From Clostridiaceae bacterium (GTDB taxonomy: Bacteria > Bacillota > Clostridia > DSM-8532), in contig JAAYPS010000187.1 of NCBI GenBank assembly GCA_012519655.1, positions 1 to 42,403 of the forward strand: a DNA stretch of 42,403 nucleotides, read 5' to 3'. Below, in pieces: positions 4,179 through 36,756 of the stretch. Positions within the stretch are counted from its first letter, which is position 1; each line of letters starts with the position of its first letter. The notes beneath the pieces were generated by a model. The model searched no databases, was not told the DNA's origin, and saw only the letters and a program-made list of their open reading frames with translations. The position numbers were made by a program, and so were the translations under genes.

Positions 4179-5669
4179 ATGGCAATAATATATCCAGATG
4201 TATCCAGAACATTCAGTGAGTTTTTACTACTGCCAAATTTGACAACAAGAGATTGTACACCAACAAGTATTGATTTAACAACACCATTAGTTAAGTATTC
4301 ATCGGGCAACAAGCCTGGCCTTAAGTTAAATATTCCAATTGTAAGTGCTATCATGCAATCAGTATCAAATGATACTCTTGCTATTGCCTTAGCAAGAACG
4401 GGCGGACTTTCTTTTATATATGGTTCTCAATCAATACAAACACAAGCTGATATGGTTAGAAAAGTTAAAAAGCATAAATCAGGTTTTGTTGTAAGTGATT
4501 CGAATGTATCAATAAATCATACGCTTAAAGATGTTATTGCAATGAAAGAAAAAACAGGGCATTCTACAATTGCTGTCACTCATGATGGTACAGCGTCTGG
4601 TAAGCTACTTGGAATTGTTACAGGTCGAGATTACCGATTAAGCCGAGATCCATTAGATAAGAAAGTATCTGAATTTATGACACCTTTCGAGGAGCTTAGG
4701 GTCGGCCAACTTGGTATAACATTAAGCGAAGCTAATGATATCATATGGGAGTATAAGTTAAATAGTCTTCCAATAATAGATAAGGAGCAAAGACTTCATT
4801 ATCTTGTTTTTAGAAAGGACTATGACGATCATAAAGCTAATCCAGAACAACTACTTGATCCTCAAAAGAGACTTGTAGTTGGAGCGGGTATAAATACCAG
4901 GGATTATAAAGAAAGAGTGCCAGAATTAATAAACTCTGAAGTTGATGTACTATGTGTAGATTCTTCTGACGGGTTTACAGAATATCAAAGAGACACAATC
5001 AAATATATAAAAGAAAACCATGATATAAAAGTCGGTGGTGGAAATGTTGTAGACAAAGAAGGCTTTATGTATCTGGTTGAATCTGGTGCAGATTTTGTAA
5101 AGGTTGGAATTGGTGGAGGTTCTATATGTATTACCCGTGAACAGAAGGGAATAGGTCGAGGTCAGGCAAGCGCAGTTATAGAAGTGGCTAAAGCACGGGA
5201 TGAGTATTATGAAAAAACCGGTATTTACATTCCAATCTGCTCTGACGGTGGTATAGTACATGATTATCATATAGTGCTTGCTTTAGCAATGGGTGCAGAT
5301 TTTGTAATGATGGGACGTTATTTTGCAAGGTTTGACGAAAGCCCGAATAAGAAAGTAAAGCGCGGGAACAGCTATGTAAAAGAGTATTGGGGTGAAGGTT
5401 CAAATAGAGCAAGAAACTGGCAGAGGTATGATTTGGGTGAGAGCGCAAATCTGAAGTTTGAAGAAGGTGTTGACAGCTATGTACCCTACGCTGGTAAGCT
5501 AAAGGATAACTTAGATGTAACTTTATCGAAAATACGCTCCACAATGTCCAGTTGCGGTGCCAAATCAATAAAAGAACTTCAGGAAACTTCACGCATTACT
5601 GTAGTTTCTTCTACAAGTTTAATTGAAGGTGGGGCTCACGATGTCATTCTTAAGGAAAGTGAATACTAA
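4179..5669 (+). CDS. guaB: IMP dehydrogenase, Tritrichomonas foetus-type
   Basis: Oxidises IMP to XMP with NAD+, the committed step to guanine nucleotides. The 496-residue protein is a TIM barrel with an inserted CBS region (about residues 100-215). The catalytic Cys is C317 in [18 protein letters not shown], and the mobile-flap Arg-Tyr pair is R416-Y417 in NWQRYDLG. From memory, the T. foetus enzyme has the same motifs at Cys319 and Arg418-Tyr419, a constant offset of two. Classical bacterial GuaB instead has GPGSICTTR. The CBS insert and flap argue against GMP reductase. AAAGGAGG sits just upstream of ATG 4179. The gene is monocistronic, between its own promoter and a terminator. Confidence 0.92.
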
Positions 5670-6862: not shown

Positions 6863-7134
6863 TTTATTCAATAGTTCCATATCAGCAAATCTTATATAAT
6901 GAAGAAAACAAGCAAGAACGAATGGAGATGAGTATTAACGGAGAACAAGTTATTCTTCTGAAAAATGATAATAACACATATACAATTGAAAGACTACTCT
7001 CAACTAATCCAAAGTCATATTTGATCCCTGAGCTTATGCCAGGAACAGTGATTATGACCATTACAGCAAAAAAGGAGACACCAGAAGTGACATGGGAGAT
7101 ATTGAACAAGGGATTTCATATAAACAAAAACTAA
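6859..7134 (+). CDS. YlzJ-like protein
   Basis: Small soluble protein of 91 residues resembling the YlzJ-like family, whose function is unknown. It starts [13 protein letters not shown] and carries the typical core [20 protein letters not shown]. Family members are usually about 70 residues; this one has a longer C-terminus that overlaps the next gene by 43 nt in another frame. The ATGA overlap with tepA and the conserved tepA-ylzJ pairing in Firmicutes support it being a real gene. No metal or catalytic motif is visible. Confidence 0.75.
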
Positions 7135-7472
7135 AATTTGCTTTAGCTGGTTTTCTTGCAGGCTTAGTAAACGGCTTACTTGGTTCTGGGGGTGGGATAC
7201 TAATAGTTTTGTATCTAACAATAATAGCCAAAGAAGAAAGGAAGAAGGCACAAGCTACTGCCATAGCTATTATCCTCCCATTAACTATACTAAGCAGCGT
7301 CATTTATTTTAAGAGTGGATTTGTGGATTGGTCCTTGTTATGGAAGGTTTCTGTAGGAGGAGTTGCAGGAGCTATTCTAGGTGCTGTTCTATTAAACAAA
7401 TTGAGACCTAAACTTATTAAGAAGTTATTTGGAGTTTTTCTCGTTATTGCAGGTATTAGAATGCTTCTGTGA
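7092..7472 (+). CDS. Half-size TauE/SafE family membrane protein (first of pair)
   Basis: A 126-residue hydrophobic protein with four predicted membrane segments. The family motif GLVNGLLGSGGGILIV lies near residue 23, and a typical repeat end, GVFLVIAGIRMLL, closes the protein. Full TauE/SafE permeases are about 250 residues and eight helices built from two such repeats. Together with the next gene this gives one full transporter in two pieces, perhaps a heterodimer. The family exports sulfite, sulfoacetate or other organic anions; the substrate here is unknown. AAAGGAG at 7071-7077 is rather far (14 nt) from ATG 7092, and the start lies inside the ylzJ-like gene, suggesting coupled translation. 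Confidence 0.8.
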   Translation: MGDIEQGISYKQKLKFALAGFLAGLVNGLLGSGGGILIVLYLTIIAKEERKKAQATAIAIILPLTILSSVIYFKSGFVDWSLLWKVSVGGVAGAILGAVLLNKLRPKLIKKLFGVFLVIAGIRMLL

Positions 7473-7544: not shown

Positions 7545-7910
7545 ATGCTTGAAATTATTATTGGTTTTATATCAGGGACAGTGAGTGGTATGGGTATGGG
7601 TGGTGGTACATTGCTAATACCAGCTTTAGTAATATTAATGGAGATTGAGCAAAAAACTGCACAAGGTATCAATTTGCTGTATTTTCTGCCTTCATCTATT
7701 TCAGCGTTAATTATACATATAAAGAATAAACATATTAAAACAAATTTACTTACTGTTTTAATAGGCGCAGGATTGTTAGGCGCATTTTTGGGTTCATTTT
7801 TAGCCGTTAAAATTTCTAACGATTTACTGAAAAGGATATTTGCTATTTTTTTAACCATCATGGGTATATATGAGATATTTTGTAAGGAAAAAACCCAAAA
7901 GGATGTTTAA
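7545..7910 (+). CDS. Half-size TauE/SafE family membrane protein (second of pair)
   Basis: A 121-residue protein with about four membrane segments. It opens with the family motif FISGTVSGMGMGGGTLLIP and ends with a repeat-like IFAIFLTIMGIYEIF. AGAAGGAG lies 8-9 nt upstream of ATG 7545. It is 72 bp behind the first half-size protein and in the same orientation. The two are different in sequence, as the two halves of a single TauE are, rather than recent duplicates. Whether they pair with each other or form homodimers cannot be told from sequence. No binding partner or regulator is adjacent. Confidence 0.8.
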   Translation: MLEIIIGFISGTVSGMGMGGGTLLIPALVILMEIEQKTAQGINLLYFLPSSISALIIHIKNKHIKTNLLTVLIGAGLLGAFLGSFLAVKISNDLLKRIFAIFLTIMGIYEIFCKEKTQKDV

Positions 7911-33003: not shown

Positions 33004-36000
33004 ATGCCAGTCAGAAGAATTTATGTTGAAAAAAAGCCGCAATTTAATATTAAGGCTAAAAAAATGAAGAAAGAAATTATGGAAGACATTGGTATAAAGT
33101 CTATAAGTAATATCAGGGTTCTTAATCGATACGATGTGGAGGGTATGACAGATAAGGATTACGAAAAAGCAAAACATTCTGTTTTTGCAGAGCCCCTAGT
33201 TGATTATTTATTTGAAGAAGATTTTCCTGTTAATAACAACGAGCATTTTTTTGCATTTGAACTACTGTCAGGTCAATATGACCAACAGGAAGACAGTTTT
33301 GCTCAGTGTATTCAACTAATATCGGGTGCACAAAAGCCAGAAGTTCAAGCAGCAACTGTAGTCGTTATTGAAGGAGATTTAACAGATGATGAGCTAGAGA
33401 AAATTAAGAATTTTTATATCAATCCAGTTGAGAGTAAATTGGCTGATTTTGATAAACCTAACACTCTTCGTGAGCAATATCCAGAACCTAAAAGTGTTAA
33501 TACAGTAAAAGGTTTCATCAATAGTGATGATAATGAGCTTAAAAAGTTATCTTCTGACTTCGGTTTTGCTATGTCTGATGAAGATCTTATTTTCTGCAGG
33601 GATTATTTTAAGAATATTGAAAAAAGAGATCCCTCAATTACTGAGTTAAAAGTAATAGATACTTACTGGTCTGATCATTGTAGGCATACTACATTTTCAA
33701 CAGAGATAACAGATGTTACATTTGATAATGAGCCGGTTTCACAAAAAATATCCGAGATTTATCAATTATACCTTGATACTCGTAAGAATGTTTATAAGGA
33801 AAAAGAAAAATCAATTACATTAATGGATTTGGCAACGCTTGGTATGAAAGAGTTAAAGCGTACTGGACATCTACAGGATTTGGATGAATCTGACGAGATT
33901 AATGCCTGTAGCATAGTAGTAGATGTTGATGTAGATGGTAAAAAAGAGCCATACCTCATAATGTTTAAAAATGAAACCCATAATCATCCTACAGAAATTG
34001 AGCCATTTGGAGGTGCATCAACATGTCTTGGTGGAGCTATACGTGACCCGCTATCTGGAAGATCGTATGTTTACCAGGCAATGAGAATTACAGGTAGTGG
34101 TGATCCAAGAAGACCACTTGATCAAACGTTACCAGGAAAACTTCCCCAAAGAGTTATAACTACTAAAGCAGCAGAGGGATATAGTTCATATGGAAACCAG
34201 ATAGGTATAACAGCTGGTCAGGTAAATGAAATATATCACGAAGGTTATGTAGCAAAACGAATGGAATTAGGTGCTGTAATTGCTGCTGCTCCAAAAGCTA
34301 ATGTTAGAAGAGAAAAACCAGAAGCAGGCGATGTGATCATTTTGCTTGGAGGAAAAACTGGACGTGACGGATGCGGTGGGGCAACTGGTTCGTCAAAGGA
34401 GCATACAGAAGATTCATTAACCGAATGCGGCGCAGAAGTACAAAAAGGGAACCCACCAATCGAGAGGTATATACAACGTTTATTTAGAGATCCCGAAGTT
34501 ACAAAGTTGATTAAGAAATGTAATGACTTTGGTGCTGGTGGGGTTTCTGTGGCCATTGGAGAACTAGCAGATGGTTTGGAAATTAATTTGGATGTAGTAC
34601 CAACAAAATATGATGGTCTTGATGGCACAGAGCTTGCAATATCTGAATCTCAGGAAAGAATGGCTGTAGTTGTTGCAAAAAAAGATGCCAAGAAGTTTAT
34701 AGAACTATCAAATATTGAAAACCTGGAGGCTACTGTTGTTGCAGATGTTACAGACACCAATCGCTTAGTAATGAAATGGCGCGGTGAAGAAATAGTTAAT
34801 ATTAGTAGGGACTTTTTAAATACCAACGGTGTACAACAAAAGATTAGTGTAGCTGTAAAAGAGCCATCCATGGATTCCGCATCTGATGAAAAGAATGAAA
34901 CGAATTTTACAACGAGTTTTAAGAAAAACCTTGAGAGCCTTAATGTATGCAGTCAAAAAGGACTTGTCCAAAGGTTTGATAGCACGATAGGTGCAAATAC
35001 CGTTCTAATGCCTTTAGGTGGCAAGAATCAGCTTACTCCTGCTGAAGGAATGGCTGCGAAGGTGCCAGTTGAAAACGGTGAAACTAAAACAGCAACACTA
35101 ATGTCCTTTGGTTTTAATCCAGATATTTCAACCAAGAGTCCTTTCCATAGCGCAATCTACGCCGTAGTTGAATCGGTTGCGAAAATAGTCGCAATGGGAG
35201 GAAATCATAAGAAAATACGTTTAACTTTTCAGGAATACTTTGAGAAGTTGGGAAAAGATCCAGTTAAATGGGGTAAACCTTTTAGTGCACTGCTGGGCGC
35301 TTTTTATGCTCAGATGAAAATGAAAATACCTTCAATAGGTGGAAAAGACAGCATGTCGGGTACATTTAACGACTTAGATGTACCACCTACACTTGTATCT
35401 TTTGCAGTATGTACCACAGATGTTACAAAGGTTTTGTCGCCAGAATTTAAGAAAGAAGATAGCACAGTTGTGCTTTTGAAAATTAAGAAAGATAACTTAT
35501 TACTTCCTGATTTTGAACATTTAAATAAGACATATTCTAAAGTTCATCAATTAATATCAGAAAATGAAGTCTTATCTGCATGTTCTGTGAAGTATGGCGG
35601 TATAGCCGAGGCAATAAGCGAAATGGCATTCGGTAATGATATTGGTTTTAAGTCATCAACAGATATGCCTTCAACAGATTGGTTTAAAGTACAATATGGA
35701 AACATAATTTTAGAAATACCTGTAAATATGAACATTGAAGAACTACTTAGTGGGTTGGATTATGAAGTTTTAGGGCATACAAGTAAAGAGGCGAGTATTA
35801 CGATTAAAGGTGAAACAATGAGTCTTAGCGAATTAAAGGCTTTGTGGGAGTCACCATTAGAAGATATTTTCCCAACTAAAGTAGAAAAAGAACCACTTAA
35901 CCCACGCAGTATTATTTATGATAAAATGAAGCCTATACATCACAGTAATTCATTTGCTATGCCTCGCGTGTTCATTCCGGTTTTTCCAGGGACAAACAAC

Positions 36001-36756
36001 GAATATGACATTAAGAGAGCATTTGAAGAAGCAGGAGCAGTTACAGATATTTATGTTATGAAGAACATGACTTCTGCAGATATTGAGCAATCAATAAATG
36101 TGATAAATGAAAAAATTCAAAAAAGCCAGATAATTGTTATTCCGGATGGCTTAAGCTCGGGTGATGAACCAGGTGGTTCTGGAAAGTTCATTGCTAATGT
36201 ATTTCGAAACCCTAAATTAGTAGAATCAATAATGGAGTTTATAAAAGTGCGCGATGGACTGATGCTCGGTATCGGTAGTGGTTTCCAGACATTACTCAAA
36301 TTGGGCTTATTACCGTATGGAGAAATTCGTGAAATGGGTGAAAATGACCCAACATTAACATTTAATACAATAGGCAGACATACATCTACTCTTGTAAAAA
36401 CTAAGGTTGTATCTTCATTATCACCATGGTTATCAAAGAGCATACCAGGCGATGTCCATACAATAGCTGTATCCCATGGAGAGGGTAGATTTGTTGCAAA
36501 TGATGATACATTTGATTATTTATTTAAAAATGCCCAAATAGCTACCCAGTATGTAGATTTTGAGGGCAATCCAACATATGATATACGCTTTAATGCCTTT
36601 GGATCTATGCATGCTGTAGAAGGAATTACAAGCCCAGATGGCAGAATTTTTGGTAAAATGGGTCATAGTGAGCGTTATTCGGTTAATACATTTAAAAATA
36701 TTCCTGGGAACATGGAGCAGAAAATATTTGAATCAGGTGTAGAGTATTATAAATAA
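33004..36756 (+). CDS. purL: Phosphoribosylformylglycinamidine synthase (large PurL) with a degenerate glutaminase site
   Basis: Converts FGAR to FGAM in purine synthesis. 1250 residues, a single-chain enzyme: N-terminal domain and linker, TYWSDHCRHTTF near 220, the synthase half with NETHNHPTEIEPFGGAS near 325, a second AIRS-like half, and a C-terminal class I glutaminase (about 990-1250). In that domain the usual GICNGFQ nucleophile motif reads GIGSGFQ, with Gly1091 in place of Cys, and the usual GGFSGGDEP reads DGLSSGDEP. The later His and Glu (MGHSER) are still present. Ammonia-dependent synthesis, or dependence on another glutaminase, would follow. No other pur gene is nearby. ATG 33004 follows AAAGAGG by 7 nt. 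Confidence 0.9.
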   Translation: MPVRRIYVEKKPQFNIKAKKMKKEIMEDIGIKSISNIRVLNRYDVEGMTDKDYEKAKHSVFAEPLVDYLFEEDFPVNNNEHFFAFELLSGQYDQQEDSFAQCIQLISGAQKPEVQAATVVVIEGDLTDDELEKIKNFYINPVESKLADFDKPNTLREQYPEPKSVNTVKGFINSDDNELKKLSSDFGFAMSDEDLIFCRDYFKNIEKRDPSITELKVIDTYWSDHCRHTTFSTEITDVTFDNEPVSQKISEIYQLYLDTRKNVYKEKEKSITLMDLATLGMKELKRTGHLQDLDESDEINACSIVVDVDVDGKKEPYLIMFKNETHNHPTEIEPFGGASTCLGGAIRDPLSGRSYVYQAMRITGSGDPRRPLDQTLPGKLPQRVITTKAAEGYSSYGNQIGITAGQVNEIYHEGYVAKRMELGAVIAAAPKANVRREKPEAGDVIILLGGKTGRDGCGGATGSSKEHTEDSLTECGAEVQKGNPPIERYIQRLFRDPEVTKLIKKCNDFGAGGVSVAIGELADGLEINLDVVPTKYDGLDGTELAISESQERMAVVVAKKDAKKFIELSNIENLEATVVADVTDTNRLVMKWRGEEIVNISRDFLNTNGVQQKISVAVKEPSMDSASDEKNETNFTTSFKKNLESLNVCSQKGLVQRFDSTIGANTVLMPLGGKNQLTPAEGMAAKVPVENGETKTATLMSFGFNPDISTKSPFHSAIYAVVESVAKIVAMGGNHKKIRLTFQEYFEKLGKDPVKWGKPFSALLGAFYAQMKMKIPSIGGKDSMSGTFNDLDVPPTLVSFAVCTTDVTKVLSPEFKKEDSTVVLLKIKKDNLLLPDFEHLNKTYSKVHQLISENEVLSACSVKYGGIAEAISEMAFGNDIGFKSSTDMPSTDWFKVQYGNIILEIPVNMNIEELLSGLDYEVLGHTSKEASITIKGETMSLSELKALWESPLEDIFPTKVEKEPLNPRSIIYDKMKPIHHSNSFAMPRVFIPVFPGTNNEYDIKRAFEEAGAVTDIYVMKNMTSADIEQSINVINEKIQKSQIIVIPDGLSSGDEPGGSGKFIANVFRNPKLVESIMEFIKVRDGLMLGIGSGFQTLLKLGLLPYGEIREMGENDPTLTFNTIGRHTSTLVKTKVVSSLSPWLSKSIPGDVHTIAVSHGEGRFVANDDTFDYLFKNAQIATQYVDFEGNPTYDIRFNAFGSMHAVEGITSPDGRIFGKMGHSERYSVNTFKNIPGNMEQKIFESGVEYYK

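Follow-up and report, generated by a model that had tools for sequence, protein, structure and literature searches.

The purL gene in the stretch of DNA analysed here (42,403 nucleotides, called 'the window') encodes a full-length FGAM synthase whose glutaminase domain has lost its catalytic cysteine, the residue with which this purine-biosynthetic enzyme normally releases nitrogen from glutamine. Glutamine is the textbook nitrogen carrier in biosynthesis, free ammonia being assumed scarce. From comparison of sequences, we judge it quite probable that the window PurL is a functional FGAM synthase running on free NH3, with a dead glutaminase (GATase) domain kept structurally, and that it forms part of a repeated, genome-wide shift in a clostridial family (family f1).

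The purL gene of the window and its glutaminase site

The following features of the window were used in the analysis:
33004 to 36756, + strand: purL, single-chain FGAM synthase of the TIGR01857 (clade II) type, 1250 aa, full length, identified by profile match
33004 to 35958, + strand: linker and synthase part of PurL, residues 1-985, intact (5/249 invariant sites changed)
35962 to 36753, + strand: class I glutaminase (GATase_5) domain, residues 987-1250, nucleophile lost, domain kept
36145 to 36171, + strand: oxyanion segment DGLSSGDEP (GGFSAGDEP in relatives retaining the cysteine)
36268 to 36288, + strand: nucleophile elbow GIGSGFQ, residues 1089-1095, with Gly1091 for the catalytic Cys and Ser1092 for Asn
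36658 to 36675, + strand: MGHSER with the triad His and Glu, intact
4179 to 5669, + strand: guaB (IMP dehydrogenase; PF00478, 362.9 bits), which makes XMP, the substrate of GuaA

The protein matched TIGR01857 over the entire profile (1-1239 of 1239) with 1836.8 bits (cut-off 1057.05), and the GATase_5 match spanned residues 987-1248. An earlier reading of the window, made from the sequence only, had reported a change from GICNGFQ to GIGSGFQ, and Gly1091 does lie at the nucleophile position; the nearest relative with the cysteine (G001, 72% identical) has GICNGFQ with the codons TGC AAT, where the window has GGT AGT. The altered oxyanion segment described in that reading was confirmed, with GGFSAGDEP as the family form, and the His-Glu pair and synthase half were intact as it had stated, MGHSER (and also SHGEGRF) being unchanged and 244 of the 249 synthase sites invariant in 39 Cys-containing PurLs being kept. 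In the GATase domain, 4 of 74 sites invariant in the same reference set differed (G1048D, C1091G, N1092S and G1177A). Relative to the glutaminase site of EC 6.3.5.3 the window PurL thus has Gly1091 for the nucleophile and retains the triad His and Glu. An AlphaFold model of the GATase domain reached a pLDDT of 55 and was set aside.

PurL was the sole PF13507 match in the genome to which the window belongs (G000; 2.63 Mb, 97.6% complete), so that neither a purQ nor a second purL is present, and a separate PurQ glutaminase of the three-subunit PurL/PurQ/PurS system was likewise not found with this profile. The suggestion that the gene might be a second PurL copy with a shifted role was consequently rejected. 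Within the window purL stands alone, as had been proposed, between genes for an HtrA-type protease and a DUF3298 protein, though guaB lies on the same stretch, and the GMP branch is therefore kept. Elsewhere in the window, tandem half-size TauE/SafE proteins were observed (7092-7472 and 7545-7910), the first corresponding to the C-terminal half and the second to the N-terminal half of that family.

Recurrence of the cysteine loss

A Cys-less PurL was found in seven scorable genomes of family f1, namely G000 and 6 of 29 relatives, with the motifs GISGG (G002 and G003), GIGTG (G004), GIGDG (G015), GISSG (G014) and GIGGG (G018). A class-wide pattern scan detected at least eight further cases outside the family (G042, G051, G067, G216, G241, G291, G298 and G395). 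When the synthase halves were placed on a tree (topology from FastTree, branch lengths from IQ-TREE), the losses occupied at least 12 separate positions, at least four of them within family f1, assuming that the cysteine was never regained. Since independent genomes lost the same position with different residues, the loss is beyond chance, and it is not an assembly effect, as G298 is a single-contig genome of 3.6 Mb. The same recurrence rules out a sequencing error as the source of Gly1091, which the sequence-only reading had considered unlikely. Other active-site motifs also decay in the Cys-less PurLs.

The genomic setting of the loss varied. G241 encodes two full-length PurLs (L352 and L353), one Cys-less (GIGNGFH) and one with the cysteine. 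In G042 and G291 the Cys-less PurL occurs beside an intact PurQ-type system and an intact GuaA, and simple redundancy suffices to explain it there. Among 80 named PurL loci three were Cys-less (L072, L082 and L127), and L072 and L082 carry names in the style of biogas-reactor MAGs (naming scheme in PMC7038595); a plant sampled in that study contained 4.2 g/L total ammonia (PMC7038595), and ammonia in such settings can rise to grams per litre.

Glutaminase sites of GuaA, TrpG and CarA

In GuaA (GMP synthase) of G000 the catalytic cysteine is replaced by Gly (PVLGVGYGMQ), as it is in G002 and G004, and the catalytic His is replaced by Gln in G002 and G003. The GATase of G015 GuaA has undergone an in-frame collapse, and GuaA of G018 and G020 consists of a 314-aa ATP-PPase only, with no GATase remnant upstream. 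The ATP-PPase half was intact throughout family f1, even where the GATase had been cleanly deleted. The NCBIfam models name a GATase-less 314-aa GuaA of this kind (L166:1504-2448) a glutamine-hydrolyzing GMP synthase, and such losses are hidden by annotation because of this naming.

GuaA was dead in all 6 genomes with a dead PurL and in 2 of 17 with an intact PurL (6, 0, 2 and 15 genomes for both, PurL only, GuaA only and neither; Fisher p = 2.8e-4, a value somewhat inflated by counting related species as independent). The two exceptions, G012 and G016, combine a shrunken, dead GATase in GuaA with an intact PurL and count against a shift to ammonia, as does TrpG of G000, which keeps its cysteine but in which further motifs are gone (Q to L, PGPG to SGSG, HPE to HPD). 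The TrpG cysteine was lost in G002, G003, G004, G014 and G020, and CarA has Ser for Cys together with Cys for His in G004, and Gln for His in G014. Outside the family, GuaA of G216 has Gly in place of Cys, that of G067 has Tyr in place of His and that of G298 has a degraded oxyanion segment, while in TrpG of G241 the Cys is replaced by Gly. GatD, the cell-wall glutaminase, kept its cysteine in every genome read, and GlmS was intact wherever read.

An alternative is that a separate glutaminase acts in trans, so that PurL would still be supplied with glutamine-derived ammonia. G000 does make glutamine, by a GSIII-type synthetase, but the PF13507 and PF00117 searches gave no candidate enzyme: there is no PurQ, and the genome has three PF00117 proteins only, these being TrpG, GuaA and GatD. 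The parallel losses in GuaA, TrpG and CarA would moreover need one donor serving all of these enzymes, for which free ammonia is simpler, and we regard supply in trans as unlikely.

Isozymes of PurF and AsnB and the glutamine-type gene cluster

PurF occurs in two forms, a canonical one with the cysteine and a divergent one, starting with MGG(L/I/V)FGV, which has neither the cysteine nor the RYSTTG loop but retains the PRTase site (loci L297, L298-L306, L310 and L316, the last from a Monoglobus MAG). The divergent form was the only one detected in G000, G002, G003, G007, G008, G016 and G017, and both forms are present in G001, G006, G013 and G021; the divergent PurF of G000 (L297) scored 189 bits against TIGR01134, below the cut-off of 350. 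A subfamily of AsnB without Cys1, which is replaced by Pro, Ser or Ala (MPG, MSG or MAG before IAG; L251, L252, L253, L254, L259 and L377-L387), occurs in genera g2 and g7, and several genomes also have an AsnB with the cysteine. The AsnB loss was initially counted in the PurL-linked set and was withdrawn from it, the Cys-less subfamily being present also in genomes whose PurL retains the cysteine.

Cys-containing AsnB and PyrG were found clustered with GOGAT pieces, GlnA and an ANTAR response regulator, GSIII being divergent (L369 in G002, L367 in G001 and L368 in G009). In G009 a GuaA with the cysteine also belongs to this cluster, and a second GuaA, without a GATase, is located elsewhere. 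The cluster resembles a regulon for low-ammonium conditions in which the glutamine-type enzymes are grouped.

Selection on Cys-less PurL

The ratio of GATase to synthase branch lengths had a median of 1.54 in Cys-less PurLs versus 0.79 in those with the cysteine (p = 7e-7), the window PurL being at 1.15; measured against its own synthase half, the evolutionary rate of the GATase domain is thus roughly doubled in Cys-less proteins. Synonymous sites approach saturation in the more divergent pairs; with this limitation, dN/dS was 0.06-0.10 (GATase) and 0.07-0.11 (synthase) in Cys-less pairs, and 0.03-0.06 and 0.07-0.09, respectively, in pairs with the cysteine. Most Cys-less PurLs had changes at 5-15% of invariant GATase sites and 1-4% of invariant synthase sites (reference of 39 Cys-containing proteins), with G216 as an outlier (26% and 16%, respectively). 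The window PurL thus combines a lost nucleophile with purifying selection on the protein, as would be expected of an ammonia-only amidotransferase. Glutaminase function thus no longer constrains the domain, which is still needed, presumably for structure.

These data bear on a further explanation, decay towards loss of the pathway, in which purines would come from salvage, purL would be under relaxed selection and the dead site would mark early pseudogenisation. In family f1, PyrG was recovered from no more than 15 of 32 genomes, and the CTP synthetase N-domain (PF06418) was not found in 17 of the 32, including G000, 12 of these 17 being at least 90% complete. PyrG, CarA and HisH, as well as a PF13522 protein, were not found in G000, where draft gaps may hide some of them. 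On these grounds some nucleotide and amino-acid genes appear to be in the process of being lost. Against decay, the glutaminase halves alone are affected, as the contrast between GATase and synthase sites indicates. The Cys-less PurLs are not pseudogenes, since purifying selection persists (dN/dS of about 0.1 in both halves), and their frames of 1250 aa are open. The ATP-PPase of GuaA has been kept despite a clean deletion of its GATase, and guaB is kept in the window. Decay is accordingly a distinctly improbable explanation. That the domain has taken on a new function, such as regulatory sensing of glutamine or of a different ligand, is very improbable, for although it remains under purifying selection after loss of the cysteine, its faster evolution and lineage-specific substitutions look like structural retention and not like a shared new role.

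Free ammonia as the probable nitrogen donor

Under the preferred explanation, use of free ammonia by an otherwise functional synthase, the C-terminal domain of the window PurL would be catalytically dead and kept as a structural part, and FGAR would be aminated with free cellular NH3, no longer with NH3 that is channelled from glutamine. The same shift would encompass GuaA and, in several of the relatives, TrpG and CarA, which have lost the nucleophile, the His or the whole glutaminase half with the synthetase halves intact. PurF and AsnB occur as glutamine-type (with Cys) and ammonia-type (Cys-less) isozymes, the former not found in G000. The likely driver would be chronically high ammonium, under which glutamine as donor, costing one extra ATP per transfer, would be unnecessary. 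The sequence-only reading had called for either free ammonia or another glutaminase; the related losses in GuaA, TrpG, CarA, PurF and AsnB support the first part, and the second found no counterpart in a PurQ-like subunit.

PurL of E. coli works poorly with NH4+. Most glutamine amidotransferases accept external ammonia in vitro (PMC3376133; PMC10526850), and Cys mutants of E. coli PurF retain NH3 activity (PMC3261824). The Km of GMP synthetase for NH4+ is high, at 103 mM in E. coli and 174 mM in human (PMC10526850). This high Km and the poor performance of E. coli PurL weigh against the explanation unless ammonium levels are high or the synthases have adapted. The parallel losses, taken together with the published ammonia use of related enzymes, suggest that the synthase would take free NH3 in vivo, and for the species of the window we infer absent glutaminase activity, NH3 as the donor in vivo and a high-ammonium habitat.

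Relation to known systems and meaning

The known ammonia-only relatives of glutamine amidotransferases are isolated cases. Carbamoyl phosphate synthetase I (CPS I) retains a glutaminase-like domain without the nucleophile cysteine. It uses ammonia only (PMC6022934) and, like the enzymes described here, is an ammonia-only amidotransferase descended from glutamine-dependent forms; in contrast, it is one enzyme, of the animal urea cycle and with an N-acetylglutamate switch, while here the change extends to several bacterial enzymes per genome and has recurred. Single-domain NAD synthetase is likewise a bacterial amidating enzyme that uses free ammonia in vivo, but it never had a glutaminase domain, this being the proposed ancestral state (PMC3376133). 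The Crenarchaeota have a Cys-less PurF paralogue, PurF', suggested to be ammonia dependent (PMC3261824), which resembles the divergent PurF here; it is archaeal and always occurs beside a PurF with the cysteine, unlike in G000, where only the Cys-less form was found. Herpesvirus v-FGAM synthases (TIGR01739) are PurL-like proteins named pseudo-amidotransferases, but they are viral tegument proteins, and the window PurL scored 26.6 bits against TIGR01739 versus 1836.8 against TIGR01857 and has kept its synthase sites. A survey of about 800 genomes listed no glutaminase-less GuaA, PurL, AsnB, CarAB, TrpDE or PyrG, NAD synthetase being the sole departure (PMC3376133), and no earlier report of several amidotransferases jointly losing their glutaminases was found in the open-access literature.

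On balance, and with somewhat less assurance than for PurL itself, a lineage of Clostridia appears to have dismantled glutamine-dependent amidation in the synthesis of purines, GMP, tryptophan and carbamoyl phosphate. It would live on free ammonia and use Cys-less forms of PurF and AsnB, glutamine being kept for protein and GatD. This would be a two-tier system, in which the glutamine-type enzymes go with GOGAT, glutamine synthetase and the ANTAR regulator and are lost in ammonia-only species. Within the same genomes, glutaminase sites have disappeared from several unrelated amidotransferases on many occasions, and standard annotation still describes these enzymes as glutamine-hydrolysing. These lineages may serve as natural replicates for the change from a two-site channelled enzyme to a one-site enzyme, and they predict which enzymes are able to dispense with glutamine and which are not, GatD being kept and GlmS intact where found. 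The pattern would also offer a genomic mark of high-ammonium life.
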